Shown: in pieces, positions 34,648 through 57,644 of the stretch
Position numbering within the stretch: position 1 is the first letter of the stretch
How the letters are laid out: each line of letters opens with the position of its first letter
DNA from: Sphingorhabdus lacus
GTDB taxonomy: Bacteria; Pseudomonadota; Alphaproteobacteria; Sphingomonadales; Sphingomonadaceae
Length of the DNA stretch: 64,000 nt
Direction of reading: 5' to 3'
Assembly: GCF_009768975.1 (NCBI RefSeq)
Contig: NZ_CP035733.1
Location: 3,392,001-3,456,000, forward strand
Notes under the pieces: generated by a model
What the model was told of the DNA's origin: nothing
Seen by the model: the letters and a program-made list of their open reading frames with translations, nothing else
Databases searched by the model: none
Translations under genes and position numbers: made by a program

Positions 34648-34696
34648 GTGCGCATCTTGCTCCTGTCCGAAATCACTTAACAGCAAATAACGAAGA

Positions 34697-34710
34697 TGGT
34701 AGCGTTACCA
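34697..34710. promoter_or_regulatory. LacI-type operator, TGGTAGCGTTACCA
   Basis: Near-palindromic 14-mer in the divergent promoter region between the cupin-like gene and the esterase gene, one base off the shared consensus TGGTAGCGCTACCA. Probably bound by the LacI-family protein at 57645. Confidence 0.7.
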
Positions 34711-34737
34711 GTAGAGTCGGAGAAGAGAGGGTTTCGA

Positions 34738-36690: not shown

Positions 36691-39158
36691 TCCGCTGGCT
36701 GGTGGTTTTGCTTTTGCTGTTCCACGGAACAGTTGAGGCGAAACCTCCGCGACAAGTTGAAGTCGTTTCCAACCACGAGGTTGACGCATTCCTTCTGCTG
36801 GAAGGGGATCGCGCGGCGCAGGTGATTACCGATCCTTCGGATGATCCGGCGGTCCAGCGGGCAGCCACCAATTTGGGCAAGGACATCTCAAGCGTTTCGG
36901 CAAGCCGTGCGCCAAAGGCGGGGCCGATGCCCATTTTGGTCGGAACGCTCGGCCGGAATGCGACGATCGATGCGCTGGTCAAAGCGGGCAAGCTGGACAT
37001 TTCAGATGTGGATGGAAAGTGGGAGGCATTTGTCCAACAGGTCGTGGACGCTCCCATGGTGGGCGTTCCGCGCGCGCTTGTGATTGCGGGTGCCGACCGT
37101 CGTGGGACGATCTACGGGGTTTATGATCTGTCGTCGCGGATAGGGATATCGCCTTGGCATTGGTGGGCCGACGTTCCTGTTCCAAAGAAACGCCAACTCT
37201 ATGTGACGGCCGGGCGGCGGATTGACGCGCCGAAAGTGCGCTATCGCGGCATCTTCATCAACGATGAAGAGCCTGCCTTGGGCAATTGGGCGCGCAAAAG
37301 GTTCGGCGGGGTGAACGCGCAATTTTACGAACAGGTGTTCGATCTGCTGCTGCGGTCGAAGGCCAATTATCTGTGGCCCGCCATGTGGGGCAAGTCGCTT
37401 TGGCAGGATGACAAGCAGAGTGCTCAACTTGCTCAGGATATGGGGATCATCCTCGGCACGTCGCACCACGAACCCATGATGCGCGCGCATGTCGAGTGGG
37501 AGCGTGCGCAGGCGGGGCGGTGGGATTATACGACCAATAGCGAAAATCTGAGAGCATTCTGGCGCGATGGCGTTGCCCGCTCAAATGGCCAGGACCGCTT
37601 GGTGACGATCGGCATGCGGGGCGACGGCGATGAGCCCATGTCAGAGACAACCGCCATCAACTTGCTGGAGAAGATTGTAGCGGATCAGAGGGCGTTGATC
37701 GCCAAGGAGACCGGCTTACCGCCCGAAAAAACGCCGCAAATGTGGGCCTTATACAAAGAGGTTCAGGACTATTATGATCAGGGGATGCAGGTCCCGGATG
37801 ATGTCCTCCTGCTGTTTGCGGATGACAATTGGGGCAATATTCGCAGGTTGCCACAAGCCGGAGAGCGCCGCGCGGGTGGCTTTGGCGTCTATTATCATTT
37901 CGATTATGTCGGCGACCCGCGAAACTATAAATGGTTGAACAACACGCAGATCGAACGGGTCTGGGAACAAATGTCCATGGCGCGCGCCCATGGGGCAGAC
38001 GCACTCTGGATCGTCAATGTCGGGGATATCAAGCCGATGGAACTGCCGACCAGCTTCTTTCTGGATTTCGCGTGGGACCCGGATAAAATCCCGTTGGAAG
38101 CGCTGCCCGATTATTATCGCCGCTGGGCGATGCAGCAATTTGGCGCATCCCATGCCGCAGATATCGCCGCGCTGTTGCGCGACAGCAGCCGGATCAATGC
38201 GCGGCGCAAGCCGGAACTCATCGATGCGCAATATTACCGCACCGACGACGATGGCGAAGCGGAGCGGATTGCGCTGGAGTATAGCGATATGGACAAGCGT
38301 GCCCGCAAAATCGCCGGAGAGCTCGCCCCGCAATATCGCAGCGCCTTCTACCAATTGGTGCATCACCCCATCGAAGCCATGGCGAACCTGCACCACATGT
38401 ACCGCGCCGTTGCGCAAGGCCGCATGGACGATGCCGAGCGCGCTTTTGCAAATGACCGTGCCATTCGCGACCGGTACGAGGGGCTGGAAGAGGGCAAGTG
38501 GCACGACATGATGCGCCAGACCCACATCAGCTATACCGGATGGCAACAACCCGAGCAGGATGTGTTGCCCGATCCGGTATCGTGGCGGCCGGACCGGAAC
38601 GTTCGCAGCGGACCCGATGCGAGCCCCGTGCCGGGTCGGAAGATGTTCCTAGAGAAAGACGGGCTCATCGTCATGGACGCGCCGTCATTTGCGCGGGCCG
38701 GCTCGGCCAGCGCGGCCGCTTGGCGCACCATTGCGAACCTGGGGCATTGGTCGGGAAGTGTAACTGTCCTCCCACAGTCCGGCGATTCCTTTGCGCCGGG
38801 TGCAGGGCCCTATCTGGAATATGACCTTGCCTTGGGTGCTGCGGGCGATTTTAGCCTGGCCGTCTACGCGTCGCCTTCACTCGATGTTCTGGGCAAAGGG
38901 GGATTGCGCTATGCCGTTTCGGTCAATGATGGGCCGCCGGTGATTGCCGATCTCATGGCAGGTGACGCCAATGTCTGGAGCAAAGCGGTGGCCGACAATA
39001 TCCGCATCGCTGTAACGCGGCATCGGGCGGAAGAGCCCGGCCCGATACGCGTCCGGATTTGGGCGGTTGATCGTGGCGTTGTTATTCAAAGAGTGATCGT
39101 CACCCGTGGCGAGTTGCCAAGGTCGAAGCTGGGACCGGTCGGGTTTAAGCCCCGCTAA
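36687..39158 (+). CDS. GH115 xylan alpha-1,2-glucuronidase
   Basis: Secreted glycoside hydrolase that removes (4-O-methyl)glucuronic acid from xylan side chains, by family. The signal peptide is about residues 1-19. The catalytic core has YRGIFINDEEPALGNWA, LLRSKANYLWPAMWGKSL and GIILGTSHHEPMMRAHVEW, all typical of GH115, followed by LFADDNWGNIRRLP. The C-terminal part (from about residue 650) is beta-rich and matches the family's extra domain. The 823 residues are normal. Translationally coupled to the esterase; convergent with xylA. Confidence 0.92.
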   Translation: MIRWLVVLLLLFHGTVEAKPPRQVEVVSNHEVDAFLLLEGDRAAQVITDPSDDPAVQRAATNLGKDISSVSASRAPKAGPMPILVGTLGRNATIDALVKAGKLDISDVDGKWEAFVQQVVDAPMVGVPRALVIAGADRRGTIYGVYDLSSRIGISPWHWWADVPVPKKRQLYVTAGRRIDAPKVRYRGIFINDEEPALGNWARKRFGGVNAQFYEQVFDLLLRSKANYLWPAMWGKSLWQDDKQSAQLAQDMGIILGTSHHEPMMRAHVEWERAQAGRWDYTTNSENLRAFWRDGVARSNGQDRLVTIGMRGDGDEPMSETTAINLLEKIVADQRALIAKETGLPPEKTPQMWALYKEVQDYYDQGMQVPDDVLLLFADDNWGNIRRLPQAGERRAGGFGVYYHFDYVGDPRNYKWLNNTQIERVWEQMSMARAHGADALWIVNVGDIKPMELPTSFFLDFAWDPDKIPLEALPDYYRRWAMQQFGASHAADIAALLRDSSRINARRKPELIDAQYYRTDDDGEAERIALEYSDMDKRARKIAGELAPQYRSAFYQLVHHPIEAMANLHHMYRAVAQGRMDDAERAFANDRAIRDRYEGLEEGKWHDMMRQTHISYTGWQQPEQDVLPDPVSWRPDRNVRSGPDASPVPGRKMFLEKDGLIVMDAPSFARAGSASAAAWRTIANLGHWSGSVTVLPQSGDSFAPGAGPYLEYDLALGAAGDFSLAVYASPSLDVLGKGGLRYAVSVNDGPPVIADLMAGDANVWSKAVADNIRIAVTRHRAEEPGPIRVRIWAVDRGVVIQRVIVTRGELPRSKLGPVGFKPR

Positions 39159-41949: not shown

Positions 41950-41997
41950 AGACTCAAACCCTCTCCCTCTTGTCTGCAACCGTTATCAGGAGAAAAA

Positions 41998-42178: not shown

Positions 42179-42236
42179 TAAAGCGCGCTTGGGAACCGCC
42201 GGATATGATATGCCGGCCTATCGGGAGAGGTTTTTG

Positions 42237-43643
42237 ATGACAGAAAAGTCAGGAGAGCAGACGAATCTGCCATTCGTGGTCGCAATTGTCGCCGTAGCGA
42301 CGATCGGCGGCTTATTATTTGGATATGACAGCGGCGCGGTCAACGGCACGCAGGATGGCCTGAAATCGGCCTTTCAACTGAGCGATGAAGGACTGGGCTT
42401 TACCGTCGGTTCCTTGCTGCTGGGTTGCATGGCAGGCTCTTTTCTCGCCGGCCGTCTCGCCGACGCGTTGGGCCGCCGCAATGTTATGATGCTGGCGGCT
42501 ATATTGTTTTTGATCGGGGCCATCATCCAGGGTTTTGCCCATGAGCAGCTGATCTTTGTTTTCGCCCGTTTTATGGGCGGTATGGCGGTTGGTGCAGCCA
42601 GCGTCCTCTCACCTGCCTATATATCGGAAGTCGCACCCGCCAATATTCGCGGACGTATGACAACGATCCAGCAGATCATGATCATCACCGGCCTCACGGC
42701 TGCGTTTGTCGTGAATTATGCCCTCGCACATAGCGCCGGTAAATCGACCGAGATATTCTGGGGCGGATATGAAGCGTGGCGCTGGATGTACTGGATGCAG
42801 GCTATTCCAGCCGCAATCTTCCTGGTGGCATTGTTCTTCATACCCGAAAGCCCGCGCTATCTGGTGTCCAAGGGTCGCGATGCCGAGGCGAAGGTGGTTC
42901 TGGGCCGTTTGTTCGGTCAGGGGTCTTCCGAAAGCAAACTCGCCGATATCCGTGCAAGCTTTAACGAAGATCACCGCCCACGGCTTGGTGACGTCATGGC
43001 GTCGGGAACCTTATTCCGGCCGATCGTATGGGCGGGATTGTTGCTCGCGGTTTTCCAGCAGCTCGTCGGCATCAACGTGATTTTCTATTATGGAGCCACA
43101 TTGTGGCAGTCCGCCGGATTTACTGAAGATCAGTCCTTGCTGATCAACATCGGTTCGGGTGTCGTGTCGATTGCGATCTGCTTTTTTACGGCAGCCTTTG
43201 TGGACCGTATCGGCCGCAAGCCATTATTACTCATCGGCTCGCTGGGCATGGCGGTAACCTTGTTCGCGATGGCCTACGCCTTTTCGAACGGTACACTCGA
43301 CGGTGCAGGCAAGCTGCAACTTTCGGATAGTGACGGCGTGATCGCGCTGGTCGCCGCCAACCTGTATGTGATGTTCTTCAACGCCAGCTGGGGACCGGTC
43401 ATGTGGGTCATGTTGGGGGAAATGTTCCCCAACCAGATCCGCGGCAGCGCGCTGGCCGTTTGCGGCCTCGCCCAATGGGGTGCCAACTATGCCATCACCC
43501 AGGCGTTCCCGATCATGCTGGCAAGCCTGGGCCTCGCCATCAGCTATAGTTTCTACGGGGCCTGCGCCTTGATCAGCTTTTTCCTCGTGAAGGCCTTCAT
43601 CAAGGAAACAGCCGGGAAGGAATTGGAACAGATGGAAGGCTGA
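42237..43643 (+). CDS. MFS sugar porter, probable xylose:H+ symporter
   Basis: Twelve-helix major facilitator of the sugar porter family, 468 residues. Signatures are GGLLFGYDSGAVNG in helix 1, LAGRLADALGRRN between helices 2 and 3, RGRMTT, PESPRYLVSKGR in the central loop, and DRIGRKPLL in the second half. Xylose is the likely substrate from its position next to xylBA and under the same operators; glucose-type porters look alike. The start is the ATG at 42237, with GGGAGAGG 7 bases upstream; ATG 42210 and TTG 42189 lack such a site. Confidence 0.9.
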   Translation: MTEKSGEQTNLPFVVAIVAVATIGGLLFGYDSGAVNGTQDGLKSAFQLSDEGLGFTVGSLLLGCMAGSFLAGRLADALGRRNVMMLAAILFLIGAIIQGFAHEQLIFVFARFMGGMAVGAASVLSPAYISEVAPANIRGRMTTIQQIMIITGLTAAFVVNYALAHSAGKSTEIFWGGYEAWRWMYWMQAIPAAIFLVALFFIPESPRYLVSKGRDAEAKVVLGRLFGQGSSESKLADIRASFNEDHRPRLGDVMASGTLFRPIVWAGLLLAVFQQLVGINVIFYYGATLWQSAGFTEDQSLLINIGSGVVSIAICFFTAAFVDRIGRKPLLLIGSLGMAVTLFAMAYAFSNGTLDGAGKLQLSDSDGVIALVAANLYVMFFNASWGPVMWVMLGEMFPNQIRGSALAVCGLAQWGANYAITQAFPIMLASLGLAISYSFYGACALISFFLVKAFIKETAGKELEQMEG

Positions 43644-43662: not shown

Positions 43663-43695
43663 AAAAGGCCCGCCTCGACAGCGGGCTTTTTTTTT
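43663..43695 (+). terminator. Rho-independent terminator after the MFS gene
   Basis: AAAAGGCCCGC stem, a 7-base loop, then GCGGGC and nine T residues. It ends the porter transcript; its T run overlaps the stop of the convergent halogenase-like gene. Confidence 0.9.
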
Positions 43696-45196
43696 ATGCA
43701 GCACAGTTTTCGCGGATGAAGTCCCGATGCTTGGGCATATATTCGGCCGAGTTCGTCACCGCCGTCTGAATCTGGTGCAAACGGGACTGCGTTTCTTCGA
43801 GCGATAAAAGCTGCGCCACGGGATCGAAGGTGCGCGGCTTCATCAATTGGCCGGTCATGACCGCGAACCAGCTGGTATCGTTGAACAGTTCCTCATTCTC
43901 GCGAAAGCAGCGGCCGCTATTTTCAAAAACGGCAATCTTTTCCGCCAGACGGTCTGGCACTTCCATATTGCGGCAATAGTCCCAGAATGGCGTGTCGGTA
44001 CGTTCTGTTGCCTTATAGTGCAGCACAAGGAAATCCCGGATTTCTTCGGTTTCCGTCGTAATGACGCGGTTGTAACGGTCGATGTCGACGGGGTTGAAAC
44101 TGCGGTCCGGAAAATTGGACAGCAAACGCGCAATGCCGCTTTGGATCATCCAGATACTGGTCGATTCCAGCGGTTCCATGAATCCCGAAGCCAGGCCGAT
44201 GGCCACGCAATTCTTCACCCAGTGTCTTTTTCGATGCCCGGTGGTGAATTTGATAATCCGGGGCTCGGCAAGCGGCTCGCCATCCAGATTGGCGAGCAGG
44301 GTTTCGCGGACGGCTTCGTCGCTGATGAAGTCGCTGCAATAGACATAGCCATTGCCGATCCGGTGTTGCAGCGGGATGCGCCACTGCCAACCTGCATCGC
44401 GTGCGGTCGATCGGGTGTAGGGCGTGATGTCTTCGACGCCAGAGCAGGGGACCGCCATGGCGCGGTTGGCGGGAAGATATTTTGACCAGTCGACATAGCC
44501 GGATTTGAGCGCCCCTTCGATCAGCAATCCATGAAAGCCCGAACAGTCGATAAACAGATCTGCCTCGATGCGGCCGCCATCTTCCAGTTCAACAGCTTCG
44601 ATAAAACCGCTTTCACCATGCTGGAGAACGCGCGTGATCTTGCCCTCCCGCCGTGTCACTCCCGCTGCTTCGGCATATTCGCGCAGGAACAATGCATAGA
44701 GTCCGGCATCGAAATGAAAGGCATAGGAAATCTGCGACAAGGGCGAGTTTCCAGCGTCGATTGGCCGCATGAACTTTCCAAATTCGGCCGCTTTCGCCTG
44801 AATGGAATATTCGTCGATCCAGGGTGCGAGACCATCCTGATAAAGCCGTTGCCAATAGGCGTGGAAAGAAACCCCTTCCATGTCGACACCATATTTGCCG
44901 AAAGGGTGGAAATAGGTGTGCCCTTTCCGGCCCCAGTCGACAAACTGGATACCCAGCTTGAAACTGCCTTTGGTACGGCGCACGAAATCATTTTCGCTGA
45001 TGCCGAGCATCCGGTTGAAGATGTTGATCTGGGGGATGGTCGCTTCGCCAACGCCCACGGTGCCGATGGCGTCGGATTCAACCAATGTGATTTTGGCATA
45101 GTCACGGCCCAGCACTTTTGCGAGCGCGGACGCCGTCATCCAACCGGCGGTACCACCACCCACGATTGCTATGCTGCGAATGCGGTTGTCGGTCAC
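43694..45196 (-). CDS. Tryptophan-halogenase-like flavoprotein (fourth in operon)
   Basis: Flavin-dependent halogenase family member of 500 residues. The FAD-binding GGGTAGWM is near residues 13-20, the catalytic Lys is Lys80 in TKGSFKLG (equivalent of PrnA/RebH Lys79), WQWRIPLQHR is the WxWxIP motif, and the Glu-Ser-Thr of PLESTSIW matches the Glu346 site. I set the start at GTG 45196, with AAGGGAG 6 bases upstream and a single base between it and the stop of the preceding gene. The native substrate is unknown. It is the last gene of the four-gene operon and converges on the MFS terminator. Confidence 0.85.
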   Translation of the reverse strand: MTDNRIRSIAIVGGGTAGWMTASALAKVLGRDYAKITLVESDAIGTVGVGEATIPQINIFNRMLGISENDFVRRTKGSFKLGIQFVDWGRKGHTYFHPFGKYGVDMEGVSFHAYWQRLYQDGLAPWIDEYSIQAKAAEFGKFMRPIDAGNSPLSQISYAFHFDAGLYALFLREYAEAAGVTRREGKITRVLQHGESGFIEAVELEDGGRIEADLFIDCSGFHGLLIEGALKSGYVDWSKYLPANRAMAVPCSGVEDITPYTRSTARDAGWQWRIPLQHRIGNGYVYCSDFISDEAVRETLLANLDGEPLAEPRIIKFTTGHRKRHWVKNCVAIGLASGFMEPLESTSIWMIQSGIARLLSNFPDRSFNPVDIDRYNRVITTETEEIRDFLVLHYKATERTDTPFWDYCRNMEVPDRLAEKIAVFENSGRCFRENEELFNDTSWFAVMTGQLMKPRTFDPVAQLLSLEETQSRLHQIQTAVTNSAEYMPKHRDFIRENCAA

Positions 45197-45197
45197 T

Positions 45198-46703
45198 TCA
45201 AACTCCCTTGCAATGGCGCATGATATAGTCCGCATGCGTCGGCATATTGTCGGCAGCTTGCCGGAATGACTGGCCCATAGCGGCGAGCAATTTCTTCATC
45301 GGACCGTCGGGGACAGCATCGACAAGCGGGTCATATCCGGTCGGGATCAGGCCCTGGCCGATCATGACTGCGGTCCAATTGGTGTCGGTAAACAACTCGT
45401 CCTCATAGCGGAACAGGCGGCCACGGCCGGCAAAAAGATCGATCTTGCGGCGCAAACTATCGGGAATTTCCATCGCCGCACATTGCCGCCAGAACGGTTC
45501 AGACCGTTCGTTGAGCTTGTAATGCAAAATCAGAAAATCGCGGATATGCTCCCATTGGGATGCGGTCAGCCGGTTATACTCATCGCGCTCATGCGCTTTG
45601 AAATCCTTGTCCGGAAATAGAGCGAGCAGCTTTGATATGCCCGCCTGGATCAGGTGGATACTCGTGGATTCCAGTGGCTCCAGAAAGCCGCCCGCCAATC
45701 CGAGTGCCACGCAGTTTTTGTTCCACGCCAGCTTGCGGCGGCCGGTTACGAACTTCAGCGGCCTTGGTTGGGCAAGCGGTTCTGAATCGAGATGCCCCAT
45801 CAAGATCCCGGCTGCGGCGTCGTCCGAAAGCTGGCTGCTGCAATATACCAGACCGTTACCCGTGCGGTGCTGGAGCGGTATGCGCCACTGCCATCCGGCC
45901 GCGCGGGAGGACGAACGGGTGTAGGGCAGCAAAGGCTCGGTTCGTGCGGTCGGGACTGCAAGCGCCCGGTCGCATGGAAGCCAGTGGGTCCAGTCTTCAT
46001 ACCCCGTTTGCAGGCATTGTTCGATCAGGAGCGCGCGAAATCCGGTGCAGTCGATGAAGAGTTCGCCCTCAATATGCGTGCCGTCGTCCAGCACCAGGGC
46101 GGAGATAAAACCGTTGGTGGAATTTTGCTGGACCTGTTCGATCTTGCCTTCACGGCGAACGACGCCGCGTTCTTCGGCATAGGAGCGCAAGAAATTTGCG
46201 TAGAGTCCGGCATCGAAATGATAGGAATAGTCCAGCGCTGGCCCGGCGGGTCCCGGGATATGTTCCGGCCGGTCAAACCGGTAATGGCGCGCGGCCACAG
46301 CAGACATATTGAACTCGTTCAGCGGTACGGCAAAACCGAGCTTTTGAAGTTTCAGCCAGAAGTGGTGAAACTTGATGCCATTGATGTCATGACCGTAGGG
46401 GCCGAAGGGATGGAGATAGGCTTCTCCTTCACGTTGCCAGCCGTCAAATTCGATACCCAGCTTGAACGAGCCCTTAGTCGCGGCAACAAATGCATTCTCA
46501 TCAATGCCCAGCATCGCGTTGAAGGTTTTGATGGGGGGGATGGTTGCCTCGCCAACACCGACGATACCAATCTCGTCGGACTCGACGAGCGTGATGGAGC
46601 TTTCCTGCATGGGCAGCATTTTTGAAAACGCCGCGGCCGCCATCCAGCCTGCGGTTCCGCCACCTGCTATGACGACTTTCCGGACGGGACCTGCTCCGCT
46701 CAT
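45198..46703 (-). CDS. Tryptophan-halogenase-like flavoprotein (third in operon)
   Basis: 501 residues, close in sequence to its neighbours. GGGTAGWM is at residues 14-21, GVGEATIPP at 49-57, and the catalytic Lys81 in TKGSFKLG. WQWRIPLQHRTGNGLVYCS and EPLESTSIHLI follow. All motifs needed for FADH2/O2/halide chemistry are present, so it may be active, but the substrate is unknown. No signal peptide, so cytoplasmic. The start overlaps the preceding gene by 4 bp and the stop is 1 base from the next start. Confidence 0.87.
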   Translation of the reverse strand: MSGAGPVRKVVIAGGGTAGWMAAAAFSKMLPMQESSITLVESDEIGIVGVGEATIPPIKTFNAMLGIDENAFVAATKGSFKLGIEFDGWQREGEAYLHPFGPYGHDINGIKFHHFWLKLQKLGFAVPLNEFNMSAVAARHYRFDRPEHIPGPAGPALDYSYHFDAGLYANFLRSYAEERGVVRREGKIEQVQQNSTNGFISALVLDDGTHIEGELFIDCTGFRALLIEQCLQTGYEDWTHWLPCDRALAVPTARTEPLLPYTRSSSRAAGWQWRIPLQHRTGNGLVYCSSQLSDDAAAGILMGHLDSEPLAQPRPLKFVTGRRKLAWNKNCVALGLAGGFLEPLESTSIHLIQAGISKLLALFPDKDFKAHERDEYNRLTASQWEHIRDFLILHYKLNERSEPFWRQCAAMEIPDSLRRKIDLFAGRGRLFRYEDELFTDTNWTAVMIGQGLIPTGYDPLVDAVPDGPMKKLLAAMGQSFRQAADNMPTHADYIMRHCKGV

Positions 46704-48118
46704 GCTGCAATGGCCTTTAGCGATTGCAGATAGGATTGCTGCTGTGGCAGGGATGAGACCGCTTTCAGCATGACCGAGCGCACCCGCTCGAAATGCGCTG
46801 CAATCGCGTCGCGAGCGATGCCATTTGCGACGACATCATAGCGCCGGGGCCGGATGTCTAATGCTTCGAAAAGCGCGATCCAGTCCCATGTTTCGAATGA
46901 CTCTTCGTCATATAAAGCCACCCTGCCGCTTGCTTCATAGGCAGAAAGGCGGTGTGCAAGACGTTCGGGAACCGGAGGAGCGGAGGCATCCTTCTGCACA
47001 AAATGAAGTATCGCGTAATCGCGCGCGTTTTCGAGTTGCTCGATTGTTTGCCGATTATACTCGGACGCCTCCACCGAAGATTCCAGGCTGTGCGGGAAAA
47101 GGTCGAGCAGGCGGGACAGGGCGGTGGCGACCAGATGTAACTGGGTCGACGCGACAGGCTCGATGACCGCGGCGGCACCCCCGATCGCCAGACAATTTCC
47201 CGCCCAAGGCGTGGCAATGCGGCCGTTGGTGAAGGTGTAGGATCCGGCCGTGCCCGATCCCGCGCCGCGGCTGATAACAAGCTCTTCGACCCGATCCTGG
47301 CAGGAAAGAAAACGCTGCCACCCGTCTTCATGCGCTTCGATATGTGCATAAAGGGGAGGGGGGGAATTGGAGGGTGTGACCGAAACCCGCATGTGGTTAT
47401 GGGGGAGCCACGCACTCCAGTCTTCAAATGCATAGCCCGGCATGTGACTGGCCAAAAGGCGGGCCTGACCGCTGCAGTCCAGGAAGAAATCGCCTTCTAC
47501 AACTTGGCCCGAAGATAGCCGAACCGAGCCTATCCGGTCCTTGGTATCGAAATGAACGTCTTCCAGGTCGCCCTCGATGACCGATACGCCCCTCTGCTTC
47601 GCGGCATTCTGGAGATAGTGCCGATAACCATCGACATGGAGATGAAGGCCATGCGCCATGGTCGACAAAACCGAACGGCCATCGCCCTTGTAAGGTGCAA
47701 AACGCCCCGTCTGCGCGCAGAGGGCCCCTACAGAATAGTTGGCAAGATTTATCGTTGCTCCATCCGCCCTCATGCGCGCCATCAGATGATGAAATGCCAC
47801 AGGTCCCAGATTGGCACCCACCTCGCCATAGGGATGAAAGGCAACGGCACCGGCTGCCCTCCAATTGCTCAACGCTCTCCCGAGGCCGTAACTGCTCCCC
47901 GTGTGCGCCACCATATGGTCTTCATCAATGTCGAGACGCGCATGCAGTTCGGCAACCGACGGAAGCGAGGCTTCAATCGCGACGGGAAGGCCGAGGGAAT
48001 CATCAATACCGCCTGAGTCGACCAAAATGACCGCACAGCTGGTTTTCGCGGCCAGCGTTAAAGCGGCCAGCCATGCTGCCACCCCGCCGCCAACAATCAC
48101 AATTCTCTCAATGGGCAT
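46700..48118 (-). CDS. Degenerate tryptophan-halogenase-like protein (second in operon)
   Basis: 472 residues from the ATG of MPIERIVIVGGG. The Rossmann FAD site is altered (GGGVAAWL). The catalytic Lys is replaced by Gly (SSYGLG, Gly78), the catalytic Glu by Ala (EPVASTQLHL), and the WxWxIP motif by WQRFLS. The fold and length are kept and no frameshift is seen, so this looks like a pseudo-enzyme or a redirected flavoprotein rather than a decayed gene. The start lies 11 bp inside the gene upstream; a 43-codon longer frame exists but has no support. Confidence 0.82.
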   Translation of the reverse strand: MPIERIVIVGGGVAAWLAALTLAAKTSCAVILVDSGGIDDSLGLPVAIEASLPSVAELHARLDIDEDHMVAHTGSSYGLGRALSNWRAAGAVAFHPYGEVGANLGPVAFHHLMARMRADGATINLANYSVGALCAQTGRFAPYKGDGRSVLSTMAHGLHLHVDGYRHYLQNAAKQRGVSVIEGDLEDVHFDTKDRIGSVRLSSGQVVEGDFFLDCSGQARLLASHMPGYAFEDWSAWLPHNHMRVSVTPSNSPPPLYAHIEAHEDGWQRFLSCQDRVEELVISRGAGSGTAGSYTFTNGRIATPWAGNCLAIGGAAAVIEPVASTQLHLVATALSRLLDLFPHSLESSVEASEYNRQTIEQLENARDYAILHFVQKDASAPPVPERLAHRLSAYEASGRVALYDEESFETWDWIALFEALDIRPRRYDVVANGIARDAIAAHFERVRSVMLKAVSSLPQQQSYLQSLKAIAA

Positions 48119-49616
48119 GGGCGCCAATCTGCCGGATAAAATCAGCATGGGTTGCCAACCCTTGAGCCGCAATGTGGCAATCGGATCGCAGGCGATCGAA
48201 TTTGGCCTGCAAGTCTGCTTCCGGAATAGCCTCTCCCAGCGGATCATTGTTTTGCGGGATTACGCGCTGGCCGAGATAAACGGCGATCCAGCTAGCATCG
48301 AGAAACATGCCGTCCCGGTAATTCACGACGACACCACGCTCGCGAAACATATTGATCTTATGCGTAAGGGAGTCCGGGATCGGCATCGTCCGCACATAAT
48401 TCCAGAACGGCGTGTCGTCGCGTTCGGTCGCATGATAATGCAGGATCAGGAAATCACGAACGCGCTCATATTCCAGATCCATCAACCGGTTATATTCCGA
48501 CGCCAGCGCAGGATCCCAGCTCTGATCCGGGAAAAATTCAAGCAATCGGCCGATAGCAAGCTGGATCAGGTGGATGCTGGTGGATTCCAAAGGCTCCAGA
48601 AATCCGGCGGATAAACCTATGGCGACGACATTTTTTGACCATTGTTTGCGACGCTTTCCGGTGACGAAGCGCAACTGGTTCAATTTGGCCAATGGCGCGC
48701 TTTCCAGTTGATCCACTAATGTGGCTGCTGCCACATCGTCCGAAATATAGTTGCTGCAATATACATGTCCGTTGCCGACGCGATGCTGTAATGGGATGCG
48801 CCAGATCCAGCCGGCATCTTGGGCGGTTGCCCGTGTATAGGGTGTCAAAGGACCGGCGGTTGCGCAGGGTACCGCGACGGCGCGGTCGCACGGCAACCAA
48901 TGTTGCCAGTTTTCATATCCGCTCTGCAATGCGCCTTCGATCAGCAAGCCACGAAAACCCGAGCAATCGACAAAAAGATCGGCAGATAGTGATGTGCCAT
49001 TATCCATCTGCACCGATTGGACAAATCCACTCTCGGATTCGAGTGCGACGTCGATGATTTTACCTTCATGGCGCTTCACGCCGCGTTCTTCGGCATAAGC
49101 GCGCAGATATTTGGCATAAAGACCCGCATCAAACTGGAAGGCATAGGAATAGGTCGACAGCAGCGAATCGGGATCCTCGGCAGGATAGGCGAAGCGACAT
49201 GCGCGCGCCGCCATCACCGGTAAGGAATAGTCTTCAATAGGATGGCCGCCAGATGCTCGTTGCATGCGCGCCCAGTGCTGGTGGAAGGCGACTCCCCCAA
49301 TGCTTTCGCCAAAGGCTCCGAAAGGATGGATATAGGAATCGCCTGCACGGGCCCAATTGCAAAATTCGATCCCCAATTTGAACGTGGCCTTGGTCTTGGC
49401 CATAAAATCTGCTTCGTCGAAGCCGAGCTTTTGGTTGAAAAATCGGATGTGAGGAACGGTAGCTTCGCCAACACCGACGGTGCCGATCTCTTCCGATTCG
49501 ACCAGATGAATCGCGTATTTCTGCCCGGAAAGCATATGGGAAAGCGCCGCAGCCGTCATCCAGCCGGCAGTTCCCCCGCCTACTATGACAATGTTTTCGA
49601 TTGGCCGATTTGGCAT
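48108..49616 (-). CDS. Tryptophan-halogenase-like flavoprotein (first in operon)
   Basis: 502 residues, first gene of the four-gene operon. GGGTAGWM is near residues 13-20, GVGEATVPH at 48-56, the catalytic Lys80 in TKATFKLG, WIWRIPLQHR and EPLESTSIHL. I start at the ATG of MPNRPIEN; the 54 codons upstream are Arg/Ser-rich and unlike the family. A GGGGAGG lies about 12 bases before the ATG. The promoter is shared with the divergent TonB receptor and holds two operators. Confidence 0.87.
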   Translation of the reverse strand: MPNRPIENIVIVGGGTAGWMTAAALSHMLSGQKYAIHLVESEEIGTVGVGEATVPHIRFFNQKLGFDEADFMAKTKATFKLGIEFCNWARAGDSYIHPFGAFGESIGGVAFHQHWARMQRASGGHPIEDYSLPVMAARACRFAYPAEDPDSLLSTYSYAFQFDAGLYAKYLRAYAEERGVKRHEGKIIDVALESESGFVQSVQMDNGTSLSADLFVDCSGFRGLLIEGALQSGYENWQHWLPCDRAVAVPCATAGPLTPYTRATAQDAGWIWRIPLQHRVGNGHVYCSNYISDDVAAATLVDQLESAPLAKLNQLRFVTGKRRKQWSKNVVAIGLSAGFLEPLESTSIHLIQLAIGRLLEFFPDQSWDPALASEYNRLMDLEYERVRDFLILHYHATERDDTPFWNYVRTMPIPDSLTHKINMFRERGVVVNYRDGMFLDASWIAVYLGQRVIPQNNDPLGEAIPEADLQAKFDRLRSDCHIAAQGLATHADFIRQIGAHAH

Positions 49617-49717
49617 ATCAACCCAGAACCTCCCCGATTTTCTTGTTCTTCGTAATCTGCAAGATGAAGCATTTTCATTCTTGCGAAAGCGATAAATATG
49701 CACTACTCCAAAAATAA

Positions 49718-49731
49718 TGGTAGCGCTACCG
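49718..49731. promoter_or_regulatory. LacI-type operator, halogenase side
   Basis: TGGTAGCGCTACCG, one mismatch from the perfect palindrome. First of two copies in the divergent halogenase/TonB receptor region. Confidence 0.75.
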
Positions 49732-49750
49732 TTAGAATTGCGCACCATAA

Positions 49751-49764
49751 TGGTAGCGCTACCG
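49751..49764. promoter_or_regulatory. LacI-type operator, TonB receptor side
   Basis: TGGTAGCGCTACCG, identical to the copy 33 bp away. The spacing is close to three helical turns, so two repressors could bind on the same face. It is 32 bp before the receptor start. Confidence 0.75.
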
Positions 49765-49795
49765 TAAACACGGCGCAAGGAATTGGGAGAGGTTC

Positions 49796-52700
49796 ATGAT
49801 TGGGAATTCTGCTGCTGCGGCACAACATTTGTCGTCTGACATAAATTTACGTGCGACGCTTCGCGCTGGCGCCTCCGGGCTCGCGCTTTTTGCTACAATG
49901 GCTTCTATGCCCGCCTTGGCGCAGGATGCATCCGAAACTGCACCGCAAAGTGATGCGACGGAAGAAGCGATCGTTGTTACCGGTTTCCGCGAGTCGCTCC
50001 AGAGCGCTCAATCCCGCAAGAAGAACGCGGATACGATCGTCGACTCGGTGACGGCTGAAGATATCGGCGCATTGCCCGACCGTTCGGTTACCGAAACCCT
50101 GCAGCGTATCCCAGGTATCTCGATCAACCGCTTTGCAGCAGGCGTCGATCCCGACCACTTCTCGGTCGAAGGTTCCGGCGTTGTTGTCCGCGGCCTCACC
50201 TATGTCCGCTCCGAATTCAATGGTCGTGAGGCGTTTACGGCCAATAATGGCCGCGCTCTTGGCTTTGCCGACGTTCCTTCCGAGTTGCTCGGCGGTGTGG
50301 ACGTTTTCAAAAGCCCCTCTGCCGACCGTGTTGAAGGCGGCATCGCGGGTGTTGTGAATCTGCGTACCCGTCTGCCTTTTGACAAAAAAGGACTGGTCAT
50401 CGCCGGTTCGCTCGAATTGAATTATGGCGATTTCGCCAAAAAGGAATCGCCCACAGGCGCTCTTGTCCTCAGCAACACTTGGGACACAGGCATCGGTGAA
50501 ATTGGTCTGCTTGCCAGTGTGTCTTATTCGCAATTGTTCTCGCGCGCAGACCGCTTCCAAGTTTCAAGCTTCCGGGTTCGGCCGATTTACTCCAATGGGA
50601 CGCGGACCGATGTTGTTCCGTTTACGGGCGCGACCCAAACAGGCAGCGGCATTTTCCCGCGCGGTGCGGTCTTGGGAACCCAGGAATTTGACCGTGAACG
50701 TTATGGCTATGCAGCTGCGGCGCAATGGCGCAGCAATGACGGCAATATGGAGGCGACATTCCAGTTCCTCCGTTCAGATGCGCGCCAGGCATGGACCGAA
50801 CGGACCATGGAAATCGCCACCGACAATGTGGCGAGCAACGGCGACTCCCGTGCTGTAGCCGGAACTTCTATCGAGTTTGACGATAGCGGCCTGTTCTCCA
50901 GCGGCGTTATCACTGGCCCGACGGGTTGGCGCGATGACCGTCAGAATGACGGTTTGTTGCGGACGCCTATTTTGGGCTTGCAGTCGAACAACATCCGGCG
51001 CGACAATGAAAACCGTGCTGTGACATCCGACTATGCGTTCAACTTCAAATGGGACGTCACCGACAATTTTGCGTTGAATGTCGATTATCAGCATGTCGAT
51101 TCATTCGTGAAGGTGCGTGACAACACGCTCTGGATTTCGACCTATCAGGATGCCTCCATTCAATTGAACGGATCTAAATTCCCGACCGTGGCATTCCAAG
51201 CACCGCAGAATTGTACGGTCGTTCCTTGTCCCGGAACCCCGGGGAGTGCCGGTGGAACGGTATTCTTCAATGATGATGACGAGTTCCCCGCCTATTACAC
51301 CGGGACGCATCAAAGTTTCTCCGATCCATTCAACAGCTTCTACCGGTCTGCGATGGACCATTTTGAAGACAGTGACGGAAACAGTGATGCCCTTCGCATC
51401 GATGGCGAGCTGACATTCCCCGAAGATGGGTTCTTTAAAGCGCTTCGGGTTGGCGGTCGCTATGCTGATCGTGATCAAACGGCCCGGTTCTCTGTTTATA
51501 ACTGGGGTGTGCTCAGTGAACAGTGGGGCAACCGTGGCCCTGTGTGGCTCGATGAGAATGTCGACGGTATTCAGGGTGGAACCGGCGGTACGCCTCCGCA
51601 GGGTTATGAAGAATTCTGCTTCGATGGCTTCTTCCGCGGTGCCGTACAAAACCCGCTCAATGGATCGTGCCGGTTGTTTTACGCTGGAAACACCGTCAAG
51701 GATTATGAAGGCTATGCGGCCTATGCCAACAACATTGTCAATGAATGGAAGGCTGGACCGCAAACAGGCGGTGGTGGTGGTTGGACGTCACTGGCGACCC
51801 GTCCCGGTGTCATAGCCGGTACGCCCTATCGCCCCGGTGAAATCAACGACCAGAGCGAGACAAATACTGCGGCTTATGTGATGCTGCGTTATGGTCACGA
51901 ATTTGACGGCGGCGCGAAGCTTTCGGGCAACATCGGCGTGCGTTATTCCAAGACCAAGCGGGATTCCCAAGGTTTCCGTGAGTTCGGTGTATCCGGATTT
52001 GTGGATGACGCGTCCTGTGCGACGCAGCTGGCATCGGCAACCGCCGCTGCGCAGCTCAGTGGCCAGCCCGCCTCCATCAGCGCGTTCTGCGCAATTACGC
52101 CCGCGGAGCGGCAGCAAGCACGTAATTTCCTGAATGGCGCGCTTGTTCCGAGCACCGTGCAGTTGGATTACGAATATGTTCTGCCAAGCTTCAATGCGAA
52201 GCTCGAGCTGAATGGTGGCCTGCAACTGCGCGCTGCTTACTTCAAGGGTGTGGCTCCACCGGAATTTGGATATGTACGTAACTATTTCCCTGTGAATCTG
52301 GACACAATTACCAATACGAACCCTGATGGTTCGGCGATTGTGCCAACTGTAAGTCCGACAGGTGCGATAAACACTGCTGGTGCCCGCTTCCAAAGCAACT
52401 TCGTGGCAGGAAATCCCTTGTTGAAGCCAACGACGTCGGACAATTTCGACTTCACGGCGGAATGGTATTTCTCGCAAGTGGGCCAGTTGACCGCATCGGT
52501 TTTTGCAAAGCGCCTCTATGGGGTTTTGACCAACGACATCGTGCGGACCGACTTGAGCAACAATGGCTCGACATATTCGGCGGTTATCACGTCACCGGTT
52601 AACTCCGATCGTGTGGGTACAATCCGGGGGCTCGAGCTTTCCTATCAGCAGGTATATGACTTCCTGCCCGGCTTCCTGAAGGGCTTGGGGATCCAGGCGA

Positions 52701-53155
52701 ACTATACCTATGTGAAGAGCAAGGGTGTGCCGCAGAGCACGTTGTCCGCAACCGATCCCGACGTGGCAGCCGGCCGGCAGCCGACCATCGGCGGCTCGTC
52801 CTTCCCGCTGCAAGGCTTGTCGAAGCATCAGTTTAACATCACGCCCTTTATCGATATCGGGCCTGTGTCGGCTCGTGCATCGTACAACTGGCGGTCTCGT
52901 TATCTCTTGACGCTGCGCGACGTGATCACGCCCTTTGATCCGATTTTCCAAGAGTCTTACGGACAATTGGATGCGTCGCTGACCTGGTCCGTAACGGATA
53001 ACATCAAGGTCGGCATCCAGGGCGTTAACTTGCTCAACTCGGTCACGAAAACATCTGCGGCGGTCGAAGATCAGAATGGAGAAATCCGTCTTGTACCGCG
53101 CGGTTGGTACATCAATGACCGTCGCTATACCGCGATTGTCCGCTTCAACTTCTAA
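49796..53155 (+). CDS. TonB-dependent receptor, probable xylo-oligosaccharide importer
   Basis: Large outer-membrane receptor, 1119 residues, of the Caulobacter/Xanthomonas type used for plant glycans. The signal peptide ends at ALA near residue 42. The plug domain begins with EAIVVTGFRESLQSAQSRK and DTIVDSVTAEDIGALPDRS and contains RIPGISINRF. The barrel has many aromatic strands and ends in RFNF, with a terminal Phe. GGGAGAGG stands before the ATG. Substrate is inferred from neighbours (GH10, GH43, GH115) and from the two operators in its promoter. It is divergent from the halogenase-like operon. Confidence 0.92.
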   Translation: MIGNSAAAAQHLSSDINLRATLRAGASGLALFATMASMPALAQDASETAPQSDATEEAIVVTGFRESLQSAQSRKKNADTIVDSVTAEDIGALPDRSVTETLQRIPGISINRFAAGVDPDHFSVEGSGVVVRGLTYVRSEFNGREAFTANNGRALGFADVPSELLGGVDVFKSPSADRVEGGIAGVVNLRTRLPFDKKGLVIAGSLELNYGDFAKKESPTGALVLSNTWDTGIGEIGLLASVSYSQLFSRADRFQVSSFRVRPIYSNGTRTDVVPFTGATQTGSGIFPRGAVLGTQEFDRERYGYAAAAQWRSNDGNMEATFQFLRSDARQAWTERTMEIATDNVASNGDSRAVAGTSIEFDDSGLFSSGVITGPTGWRDDRQNDGLLRTPILGLQSNNIRRDNENRAVTSDYAFNFKWDVTDNFALNVDYQHVDSFVKVRDNTLWISTYQDASIQLNGSKFPTVAFQAPQNCTVVPCPGTPGSAGGTVFFNDDDEFPAYYTGTHQSFSDPFNSFYRSAMDHFEDSDGNSDALRIDGELTFPEDGFFKALRVGGRYADRDQTARFSVYNWGVLSEQWGNRGPVWLDENVDGIQGGTGGTPPQGYEEFCFDGFFRGAVQNPLNGSCRLFYAGNTVKDYEGYAAYANNIVNEWKAGPQTGGGGGWTSLATRPGVIAGTPYRPGEINDQSETNTAAYVMLRYGHEFDGGAKLSGNIGVRYSKTKRDSQGFREFGVSGFVDDASCATQLASATAAAQLSGQPASISAFCAITPAERQQARNFLNGALVPSTVQLDYEYVLPSFNAKLELNGGLQLRAAYFKGVAPPEFGYVRNYFPVNLDTITNTNPDGSAIVPTVSPTGAINTAGARFQSNFVAGNPLLKPTTSDNFDFTAEWYFSQVGQLTASVFAKRLYGVLTNDIVRTDLSNNGSTYSAVITSPVNSDRVGTIRGLELSYQQVYDFLPGFLKGLGIQANYTYVKSKGVPQSTLSATDPDVAAGRQPTIGGSSFPLQGLSKHQFNITPFIDIGPVSARASYNWRSRYLLTLRDVITPFDPIFQESYGQLDASLTWSVTDNIKVGIQGVNLLNSVTKTSAAVEDQNGEIRLVPRGWYINDRRYTAIVRFNF

Positions 53156-53180: not shown

Positions 53181-53215
53181 GCCGTCGCCTTGCAAAAGGC
53201 GGCGGCACTTTTTTT
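53181..53215 (+). terminator. Strong terminator after the TonB receptor
   Basis: Eleven-base-pair stem with one G-U pair, a GCAA tetraloop and seven T residues. It lies 26 bp after the receptor stop. Confidence 0.92.
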
Positions 53216-53918
53216 ATGGGCGGCGGTAGGCGATGAACAGGTTGGCCGTAAGACGGCCGAAGCGTGGATCAGGGTCCAGCGGAACGTCTGCAGGTATGAC
53301 ACCTGAGTGAAGCATATTGCTCCTGTAGAGAATGAGCCGGTCGAAGCGTGCCTCGATATGCGCGGTTTGCGTATAGCCGGGAGTTGAAGGTGCCATGTAG
53401 CCCGACATTTCCGGCATTTGCGCCAGCATTGCATCGCGCACATCTATCCAACGCGCAGCACGCTCTGGACCAACGGATTCATAACCGGTTTTGTCTTGCC
53501 TGTAAAAGGCGGTGCCACCCAGTTGTGCAGCGTATAGATAGTGGACGACCGCGAAGTGCAGACTGTCCGTCGTATCAATATGCGGGACCTTCTGCAGCGG
53601 CTGAAGATCGCTTGGCGCGGTTGTTAAGATAGAGAAAAAGCACTCTGCTTTCGCCAGTTTTGCGCCGTCAATGCGGTAGGTGTTGCGGATGACAGGATCA
53701 AGCGCGCGAACCACACCCTCGACATAATCGAGCGGCATGGGTGCCCGAATACCGGGATAAAGATTGCTGTCTACGCCAATAAACTCGGCTTCGTTCGCGG
53801 CATAGCGGACCAGAGCCGACGGGTCCTGAAGCACGTTGTCGACTTGGACGAGGGCTGCTTCTTCCTGCCCGATCTTCAGAATATCCAATTGCGAAGAGGG
53901 GGAGGGCTCAAAACGCAT
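53214..53918 (-). CDS. DUF6445-like protein
   Basis: 234-residue protein without a signal peptide, similar in outline to the DUF6445 group. PHIDTTD in the middle and DRLILYRSNMLHSG near the end hold His/Asp and Arg/His residues in the order expected of a 2-oxoglutarate/Fe(II)-type double-stranded beta-helix, though the enzyme class is unproven. The start is ATG 53918 with GGGAGG 5 bases upstream. It follows the GH10 gene by 35 bp, so it is the third gene of the GH3-GH10 operon. Such proteins recur beside TonB receptors and halogenase-like genes. Confidence 0.7.
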   Translation of the reverse strand: MRFEPSPSSQLDILKIGQEEAALVQVDNVLQDPSALVRYAANEAEFIGVDSNLYPGIRAPMPLDYVEGVVRALDPVIRNTYRIDGAKLAKAECFFSILTTAPSDLQPLQKVPHIDTTDSLHFAVVHYLYAAQLGGTAFYRQDKTGYESVGPERAARWIDVRDAMLAQMPEMSGYMAPSTPGYTQTAHIEARFDRLILYRSNMLHSGVIPADVPLDPDPRFGRLTANLFIAYRRP

Positions 53919-53953: not shown

Positions 53954-55099
53954 TTATCGCGCGGGCGCCGATGCGAAGGCCTGGGCAAGTACCGTATGCA
54001 AGGGCTTGGACTTGAATTCGCTATCATAAGGGCAGGGCCTTTTCGGCTGGCCGTCGGTGCGCGTCGGTTGAAACTGCTGAAGCCAGGAATAATTGTCGCA
54101 CAGCCCCCAAGCCAGCACATCTTTCAATTGGGGATAGCTGAACATGAGATCAAGATAGCCCTTGGCATAGGCGGCGACCGATTGATCGCGTGAAGCGATA
54201 TCTGCGGGCAAGGCCTGATCGTTGACGTCGAACTCGGTCATCAGCAGATGATATCCCATGGCGGTGACCTCATCGATAAACTGGCGCCATTCACGCTCCT
54301 GCTTTGGACCGGTGCCGGTAGACGGATCATAAGTATCGATCCGGATATGCGACTGGACGCCCAGGGCATCGACAGGGACGTTGCGCTTTTTAAATCCTTC
54401 CAGCAGCTTCAGAACACCGGCGCGATGTTTTTCATTGCCGGGCTCCCAGCTCATATAGTCATTATAGACAAGCTCTGCGTCGGGCAGCTGTTCGCGGGCT
54501 GTGTGAAATGCGAGGTCGACCAATGTCTCTGTGCCGCCGATGGCGCGCGACAAGGCAGTTTGCGCCAAGGTGGAATCTTCCAGCACCGTTTCGTTGACCA
54601 CATCATAGCTGAGGATCTTGCCGCGATAACGGTCGGTCACGGTCTTGATATGGGTGGTCAACAACCGCTCGGCTTCGCGGACCGGAGTGGCGCCAAAGTC
54701 ATAAGCTTCCAGCCATGCAGGTTGCCACTGCGGCCGGTGCCAGAGCAATGTATGGCCGCGTATGGCGAGAGCGTTTTTCTCCGCAAAGGCGACAATGGCG
54801 TCAAAAGGTCCGAAGTTGAACGCATCAGGTCCGGGGCGCAAAGCTTGCCACTTCATCTCATTTTCCGCGACCAGCATGCCGCAGTCGCGCTGCAGCAATT
54901 TGGCATATTGCGGATTGCGATATGATCCCGATTGTTCGTTGCCAGCGCTCACTGCGGAACCAAAACGCATTCCCTTGGATTTGGCGGCATGATGTAATCC
55001 GGAACCATGCTCATGCGCCCAGGCTGCATCGCGGCCAAGGCCGATCGCTCCTGCCATGGCGACCATCGAGGCAAGTGTTTCCCGCCGTGAAAGCTTCAT
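53954..55099 (-). CDS. GH10 endo-1,4-beta-xylanase
   Basis: Secreted xylan-cutting enzyme, 381 residues. A twin-arginine type signal (SRRETLASMVAM) leads to the TIM barrel. The acid/base Glu is in YDVVNETV (Glu170) and the nucleophile Glu in LLMTEFDVND (Glu289); LRGHTLLWH-like IRGHTLLWHRPQWQPAW is also typical. I use the second ATG: AGGAG directly abuts the first ATG but is 6 bases from the second. The gap to the upstream GH3 gene is 13 bp. Confidence 0.95.
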   Translation of the reverse strand: MKLSRRETLASMVAMAGAIGLGRDAAWAHEHGSGLHHAAKSKGMRFGSAVSAGNEQSGSYRNPQYAKLLQRDCGMLVAENEMKWQALRPGPDAFNFGPFDAIVAFAEKNALAIRGHTLLWHRPQWQPAWLEAYDFGATPVREAERLLTTHIKTVTDRYRGKILSYDVVNETVLEDSTLAQTALSRAIGGTETLVDLAFHTAREQLPDAELVYNDYMSWEPGNEKHRAGVLKLLEGFKKRNVPVDALGVQSHIRIDTYDPSTGTGPKQEREWRQFIDEVTAMGYHLLMTEFDVNDQALPADIASRDQSVAAYAKGYLDLMFSYPQLKDVLAWGLCDNYSWLQQFQPTRTDGQPKRPCPYDSEFKSKPLHTVLAQAFASAPAR

Positions 55100-55112
55100 C
55101 TTCATCTCCTAC

Positions 55113-57494: not shown

Positions 57495-57532
57495 CGTTTC
57501 TCTCCTCTTCAAGCGATCACAGCCGCCTTTAA

Positions 57533-57546
57533 TGTTAGCGCTACCA
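57533..57546. promoter_or_regulatory. LacI-type operator upstream of GH3
   Basis: TGTTAGCGCTACCA, one change from the consensus. It is 39 bp before the GH3 start and 99 bp before the lacI-type gene, so it may also serve autoregulation. Confidence 0.68.
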
Positions 57547-57644
57547 TGAACGATTGTGCGATGCACGTCAATCTTTGACATGCATCATTGCATCATACTG
57601 GAAAAGCACCGCAAAGCGTGGCATGGCGTCTAGGGTAAGGGGGA

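Follow-up and report, generated by a model that had tools for sequence, protein, structure and literature searches.

A candidate halogenase/pseudo-halogenase pair in a four-gene cassette beside a TonB-dependent glycan receptor

A four-gene cassette with a degenerate second member

The stretch of DNA analysed here, referred to as the window, comprises 64,000 nucleotides (positions 3,392,001 to 3,456,000 of contig NZ_CP035733.1) near the end of the single 3.46-Mb contig of the Sphingorhabdus lacus genome, and carries four tandem genes of the flavin-dependent tryptophan halogenase family, halA to halD, beside the gene of a TonB-dependent receptor. The second gene, halB, has lost the catalytic signature of the family, and a degenerate gene of this kind follows nearly every halA-type gene in the genomes compared. 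With moderate confidence, we suggest that halA and halB encode an obligate heteromer of an active halogenase and a non-catalytic paralogue, and that halC and halD encode two ordinary halogenases of the same glycan-receptor cassette. The main features are as follows.

48108..49616, minus strand: halA, predicted A-type flavin-dependent halogenase (Pfam, motifs, A profile)
48108..48118, minus strand: 11-bp overlap of the halA stop and the halB start (coordinates of the open reading frames, ORFs)
46700..48118, minus strand: halB, pseudo-halogenase (motif loss; halogenase fold in the model)
45198..46703, minus strand: halC, predicted complete flavin-dependent halogenase, C lineage (Pfam, motifs, lineage)
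43694..45196, minus strand: halD, predicted complete flavin-dependent halogenase, D lineage, GTG start (Pfam, motifs)
49796..53155, plus strand: TonB-dependent receptor, TIGR01782 (656.9 bits, cut-off 310)

The initial annotation had described the quartet as four tightly coupled halogenase genes that share a strand, the first two junctions being overlaps (11 and 4 bp) and the third a 1-nt gap, and this layout is borne out by the coordinates: halB and halC overlap by 4 bp at an ATGA junction, and 1 nt separates halC from halD, for which an in-frame ATG at 45235 is a possible alternative start. No signal peptide is apparent, as had also been noted, because all four proteins begin at or near the Rossmann strand when read by eye. 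All four match the Pfam family Trp_halogenase (PF04820, cut-off 21 bits), with 657 bits for halA, 288 for halB, 638 for halC and 640 for halD. The GxGxxG motif, the Lys of the KLGI motif, WxWxIP and EPLEST are kept by halA, halC and halD (in halA as GxGxxG, K80, WxWxIP at 270-275 and E344), and these three would, by the motif meanings given for the family, be halogenating enzymes that depend on flavin (PMC5945002; PMC7336383; reports cited by PubMed Central number, here and below, are drawn on through excerpts). In halB, the catalytic Lys is replaced by Gly78 (TGSSYGLG for TKATFKLG), WQRFLS (267-272) stands where an intact copy has WIWRIP, EPLEST has become EPVAST (320-325) with A323 in place of the catalytic Glu, and GGGVAAW instead of GGGTAGW lacks the last Gly of GxGxxG. 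Judged from these residues, halB is a member of the family by descent and not a halogenase by signature. The count of four halogenases thus stands as far as the family is concerned and fails for the second gene, a degenerate paralogue.

The degenerate protein nevertheless keeps the family fold in its predicted structure, which like all predictions used here is of a single chain: the model has a mean predicted local distance difference test (pLDDT) score of 95.5, and its best matches in the PDB are 9luq, Xcc4156 and BrvH, at template modelling (TM) scores of about 0.9 (0.91 to BrvH and 9luq). The ratio of nonsynonymous to synonymous substitution rates (dN/dS) was calculated against two relatives, a third comparison being saturated for the halogenases and the receptor, and gave 0.151 and 0.133 for halB, 0.04-0.05 for halA, 0.06 for halC, 0.03 for halD and 0.01-0.02 for the receptor. 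The fast divergence of B-type genes and the loss of their motifs are what would be seen in a functionless gene decaying after tandem duplication, but purifying selection on halB in both comparisons possible, open reading frames and a position conserved over alpha- and gammaproteobacteria make decay extremely improbable, and it was rejected on the dN/dS values.

Pairing of A-type and B-type genes across genomes

In relatives from the same genus and the same order, the gene after the halA-like one is again degenerate. For a wider count, a profile was built from 12 A-type proteins and applied without any reference to B. A scan at the level of the order, in which only the best three candidates per genome were scored, gave a match at E <= 1e-228 in 66 of 396 genomes, at 67 places, of which 60 were newly taken, 4 were already in the set and 3 were left out. 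A second collection consisted of named records, found with the A-type profile as the best 80 of 578 confirmed stretches (at least 594 pattern matches). Genes scoring at least 755, one per locus, were called A-type, a threshold set after the gap in the scores had been seen; identical cores were counted once, 44 genes with less than 1.7 kb downstream were set aside, and stop-to-stop frames were used in the relatives' loci, as greedy ORF calling hid genes in GC-rich loci. The cluster of the window itself is not among the 113 distinct A-type genes that resulted.

After 112 of these 113 genes, the next gene on the same strand is a degenerate gene of the halogenase fold, and the pairing is found in 101 of 102 when the loci used to train the profile are left out. 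By comparison, a degenerate next gene follows only 1 of 188 other halogenases (L095, apparently cut short). Among 116 B proteins, namely the 112 and four more from genes scoring 740-755, the catalytic features considered (K, the second W, IP and E) are all absent in 91, whereas one is left in 17 and two in 8; a single protein keeps both K and E. The coupling stressed in the initial annotation is conserved as well, with an A/B overlap of 4 bp at 80 of the 113 A-type genes by automated start choice, against 11 bp in the window. The one exception to the pairing, locus L151, has five halogenase-fold genes (L151:4415-12130), and the gene after A is partly degenerate (572 bits, 2 of 10 checked sites changed); it keeps K, WxWxIP and E, has GxGxxA and EA, and is possibly an intermediate on the way to B.

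Named hosts of the pair include Sphingomonas, Novosphingobium, Caulobacter, Brevundimonas, Niveispirillum, Erythrobacter and Asticcacaulis and, in the gammaproteobacteria, Aliiglaciecola, Woeseiaceae and Steroidobacteraceae; several of the host genomes are metagenome-assembled. A draw across the class met the A type seldom: at E <= 1e-215 it was present in 6 of 289 genomes, and four of these six are from the family to which the window belongs. A contig scan with halB alone returned 29 pattern stretches and no relative.

Lineages and make-up of the cassette

A quick tree was made of 96 proteins taken from 27 loci. All 27 B proteins fall on one side of a branch with a support of 100 in the Shimodaira-Hasegawa-like approximate likelihood ratio test (SH-aLRT). 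A single origin of B is therefore likely, though not proved, because the tree program warns of long branches among the B proteins. The C group (17 rows) and the D group (23 rows) have supports of 94 and 96, and the A group contains all 27 A proteins together with two more, of which one sits on a very long branch. Separately, three residues of halA (H56, R385 and G436) are fixed in A (at least 95%) and rare in C and D (at most 10%). Sub-groups of loci recur across all four lineages, and pairwise distances agree among the lineages and with the adjacent receptor (0.86 for A-B, 0.91 for A-C, 0.86 for A-D and 0.79 for A-receptor; 0.77-0.91 overall), with none of 500 permutations as high in each comparison. 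Such agreement fits joint inheritance of the block, and the quartet would appear from it to be one old cassette, in which A, B, C, D and the adjacent receptor have diverged in step in alpha- and gammaproteobacteria.

The outer members of the cassette are less regular than its core. Exactly four halogenase-fold genes are present in the stretch examined at 82 of 113 loci. Typed by profile score, 56 loci have C as well as D besides A and B, 15 have C without D and 3 have D without C; further halogenases are of unclear type at 32 loci (16 with none named and 16 with one), and none is seen at 7 loci, where the stretch examined may be short. Since C and D are variably recognised across loci, A plus B is the constant unit. 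The idea of a complex raised in the initial annotation agrees with the conserved A-B coupling, but a constant unit of two lends no support to the fixed ratio of all four proteins proposed there. A receptor is present at 103 of the 113 A-B loci. Where one longer than 600 aa was found (98 loci), it lies no more than 600 bp away in 95 cases. Genes for a Cupin_8-type protein and a DUF6445 protein are found at 52 and 17 of the 113 loci, respectively.

A proposed heteromeric halogenase and its precedents

By sequence, the proteins of solved structure closest to halA, halB and halC are BrvH of Brevundimonas (PDB 6frl), Xcc4156 (PDB 6y1w) and 9luq of Pseudoalteromonas. BrvH and Xcc4156 have the same motifs as A, C and D, and the natural substrate of these enzymes and their like is so far not known. 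A second halogenase gene adjoins brvH (PMC5945002). Both were studied as single enzymes, no pseudo-enzyme partner being mentioned in the excerpts, and the term 'TonB' occurs nowhere in PMC5945002 or PMC7336383. The tryptophan halogenases PrnA, RebH, PyrH and Thal share family, fold and motifs with the cassette proteins, but act on free tryptophan in secondary metabolism and are more distant, with at most 304 bits for halA versus 477 for BrvH. For the pair itself, there is one predicted precedent, Ams8/Ams9 of armeniaspirol biosynthesis, predicted to be a pseudo-halogenase/halogenase heterodimer; the catalytic Lys of the halogenase-like protein is replaced and its flavin adenine dinucleotide (FAD) site is obstructed, and deletion of ams8 abolishes the pathway (PMC13311259). 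Likewise, halB lacks the catalytic Lys and halA is intact. Unlike the cassette, Ams8/Ams9 is proposed to chlorinate a carrier-bound pyrrole in a biosynthetic cluster, and the excerpts describe neither a glycan receptor nor a set of four (PMC13311259). Among the matches listed from the open-licence PubMed Central literature, none was found to report a conserved four-gene set or the A-B rule; searches of the same literature for a halogenase pseudoenzyme and for DUF6445 gave nothing, and those for halogenases with TonB-dependent receptors gave, among others, PMC11337851, which in its excerpts names both in separate contexts.

How the pair might work can be outlined by analogy. BrvH eluted as a dimer (PMC5945002), tryptophan halogenases share a crystal dimer (PMC5945002; PMC7336383), and B may have replaced one half of an ancestral homodimer to give an A-B heteromer. 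A would receive reduced FAD (FADH2) from a free reductase and form a flavin hydroperoxide with O2; this would oxidise halide to hypohalous acid, which K80 and E344 would direct to an electron-rich ring. Bromide is a likelier halide than chloride if BrvH and Xcc4156 are taken as guides. B would contribute no chemistry and would most likely position a bulky, presumably macromolecular substrate or stabilise A, whereas halC and halD, two further lineages of the cassette, would probably act on the same target at other positions. A LacI-type regulator would switch the cassette on together with the xylan receptor.

Several observations weigh against this scheme. First, neither BrvH, though slow, nor Xcc4156 needs a partner to act on model substrates (PMC5945002; PMC7336383), and Xcc4156 may be monomeric in solution (PMC7336383). 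Second, gene adjacency and coupling can persist without contact, and the agreement of distances follows from shared descent of the block and is no proof of interaction. Third, the rule itself blurs at its edge: genes scoring 740-755 are mixed, with a degenerate next gene in 4 of 13, and the threshold of 755 was chosen with the scores in view. Fourth, no receptor is seen at 10 of the 113 loci, and 9 of these 10 are among the 100 loci whose flanks reach 5.5 kb or more on either side. Fifth, B evolves fast, its mean pairwise distance being 0.72 as opposed to 0.44 for A, so that a common A-B interface is not evident; nor is this speed special to B, because the dN/dS of the neighbouring DUF6445 gene in this locus comes close to that of halB (0.126 and 0.079 against the two relatives). 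Lastly, most long B forms keep GxG and may bind flavin.

This last point leads to B as a flavin carrier or an oxidase, which would hand FADH2 to A or carry out another redox step. Of 117 B genes, 113 retain G13 and 93 retain G15, and D210 and D214 of halB, in the stretch DFFLDCSG that we take to touch FAD, are among its best conserved residues. At some loci, however, B is a short protein of about 340-410 aa that has lost the WxWxIP block, the glycine motif and about 100 residues, and yet holds the same place, and we regard either role of B as improbable. The model of a 368-aa short form is a reduced halogenase (pLDDT 90.5) whose best matches are halogenases. Of the 26 positions that are invariant among 15 short B proteins, 11 fall in the C-terminal stretch 290-316. 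Over all B proteins, the most conserved block is 321-360 (0.48), followed by the N-terminal block 1-40 (0.45), and the least conserved blocks are 241-280 and 441-472 (0.27 each); a contact surface retained in the C-terminal part of B would fit this pattern.

If halogenases of this kind can form A-B heteromers, their real activity would escape assays of single proteins, and the question of the substrate could be put to the test by co-expressing A with its dead partner. The pair would then also provide bacteria with a clear example of a pseudo-enzyme that has long been kept as a subunit next to the active paralogue, and could connect halogen chemistry with glycan uptake.

Possible substrates

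A small aromatic compound that is taken up or set free together with the glycan, such as a lignin-like phenol, ferulate or indole, is a conceivable substrate, and BrvH accepts free indole in vitro (PMC5945002). The palindromes described below, which are common to xylan and xylose genes, are in line with it, and the initial annotation had pointed to ferulate or coumarate linked to xylan. In a survey of neighbours (86 proteins from 24 of 36 chosen loci, 2 of 88 left out, counts pooled), however, A-B loci are accompanied by several beta-glycan families, GH3, GH9, GH43, GH10, GH67 and GH5, and a xylan-specific aromatic is therefore unlikely as a common substrate. In addition, a Pfam or NCBIfam scan of 22 distinct proteins of the window recognised no feruloyl-esterase-like or aromatic-catabolism family, and a small substrate leaves the conserved dead partner unexplained. 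The suggestion of ferulate or coumarate is weakened accordingly, and we consider a small aromatic substrate in general doubtful.

Alternatively, the TonB receptor or another exported protein may be halogenated in the cytoplasm before export, at conserved Trp residues such as W570 and W577, with B as the docking subunit. BrvH and Xcc4156 have open active sites, for which their authors suggest peptide substrates (PMC5945002; PMC7336383), and MibH, SrpI, MppI and ChlH, which halogenate Trp inside peptides, offer a model for a polypeptide substrate, but are described from clusters for peptide natural products (PMC12424672). Besides the receptor gene lying so close at most A-B loci, the two residues themselves speak for this proposal.

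51500..51526, plus strand: receptor motif NWGVLSEQW, residues 569-577 (alignment of receptors from A-B loci)

Both W570 and W577 are present in all 95 aligned receptors of A-B loci, mostly as NWGxxSxxW. In an independent draw of 41 TIGR01782 receptors (40 of 63 receptor places and L207), 16 are flanked by a halogenase gene within about 2.5 kb to either side (1.5 kb for L207) and 25 are not; the pair occurs in 5 of the former and in 0 of the latter. Among the five, L228 also stands beside a degenerate copy. On the other hand, the pair is missing in the other 11 of the 16, and in a further set of 25 receptors, which come almost entirely from loci that lack A-type genes, W570 occurs in 11 and W577 in 7. 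The motif marks a clade of receptors, so that descent alone explains it, and conserved aromatics in a glycan receptor may simply bind sugar. Moreover, we know of no halogenated receptor, which also counts against a receptor target. The pattern fits a substrate role of the receptor, a part of the two residues in sugar binding, or descent and nothing more, and as proof of receptor modification the two residues were rejected on account of clade descent. Three further residues (W378, Y629 and Y792) picked out as tracking the presence of C and D were left unused, the groups of 53 and 16 receptors being confounded by descent.

We judge halogenation of the receptor or another exported protein unlikely. 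As a special case of the A-B heteromer, the receptor as target is the boldest candidate: in a cassette widespread in proteobacteria, the halogenase and its dead twin, acting as one enzyme together with the two other halogenases, would brominate tryptophans of the co-regulated receptor of the outer membrane as a regular protein modification in nutrient uptake, which is rather unlikely in this full form.

Operators and gene neighbourhood

The genes halA and that of the receptor diverge across two LacI-type palindromes, copies of ATGGTAGCGCTACCGT at 49717 and 49750.

49717..49732, no strand: LacI-type palindrome, operator 1 of the divergent promoter region (pattern match)
49750..49765, no strand: LacI-type palindrome, operator 2, 33 bp further on (pattern match)
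57645..58712, plus strand: LacI-family regulator (Pfam)

A pattern built from the two copies and searched in the window with up to three mismatches found 7 places with 14 strand-wise matches, four of which are the two copies themselves; 1.15 matches were expected, and none of 100 shuffles reached 14. The palindromes recur in the xylB/MFS and GH3/lacI intergenic regions, and two relatives (L039 and L040) carry the operator pair in the corresponding position. Operators common to the quartet and the receptor, as proposed in the initial annotation, are thus seen again at xylan and xylose genes, and the LacI-family regulator is their likely reader. With a receptor, glycoside hydrolases (GH), a regulator and shared operator-like sites, the window has the make-up of a TonB-receptor glycan-utilisation locus. 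The other features are listed below.

33637..34686, minus strand: Cupin_8 (JmjC-like) protein; the gene at 34696-36690 runs divergently, and a palindrome lies at 34696
36687..39158, plus strand: GH115 family protein (same region)
40504-41979: FGGY sugar kinase; palindromes at 41997 and 42164 between it and the sugar transporter
42189..43643, plus strand: sugar transporter of the major facilitator superfamily (MFS) (Pfam)
43668..43686, minus strand: terminator-like hairpin 3' of halD (consensus match only)
53214..53918, minus strand: DUF6445 protein (PF20043, Pfam)
53954..55105, minus strand: GH10 family protein, xylanase family (Pfam)
55113..57581, minus strand: GH3 family protein that probably starts at 57494, with a palindrome (57532) upstream of this start

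Other proteins of the window are GH5-family, acetylesterase-like, GH43 and aldose epimerase proteins, and a xylose-isomerase-like protein scores just under its cut-off. Terminator-like hairpins are not in excess in the region (8 versus 6.6), and promoter-like sites are fewer than in shuffles (1 versus 4.1).

The Cupin_8 gene lies about 9 kb from the quartet and diverges from the acetylesterase-like gene across the palindrome at 34696; because of this arrangement, and because the family recurs at A-B loci, its product may share the regulon of the quartet. That palindrome (34696-34711) coincides with the first ATG of the acetylesterase-like frame, for which a start at 34738, ahead of a signal-peptide-like stretch, is more likely. 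A second DUF6445 gene of the genome (G000:C1:1711015-1711677, L223) lies away from the quartet.

Other halogenase loci

The genome contains eight PF04820 genes (nine rows, halB being split in two). The four outside the quartet are at three further places, each with a TonB receptor inside the 20 kb examined, and 3 of the 4 TIGR01782 receptors above the cut-off in the genome are at halogenase loci. One of these genes, L052:16013-17521, encodes a divergent halogenase on a long branch that is complete in its motifs with EPLEAT for EPLEST, and ends a receptor locus of starch-related look as judged by eye. Elsewhere, L042:7027-10304 has a different layout with a single halogenase, in which SapC, Cupin_8 and halogenase genes stand in a row after the receptor. 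In L146, L194 and L195, a divergent subtype with WxWxIG (scores of about 400-430) shares the locus with a normal halogenase, which it directly precedes in L194 and L195.

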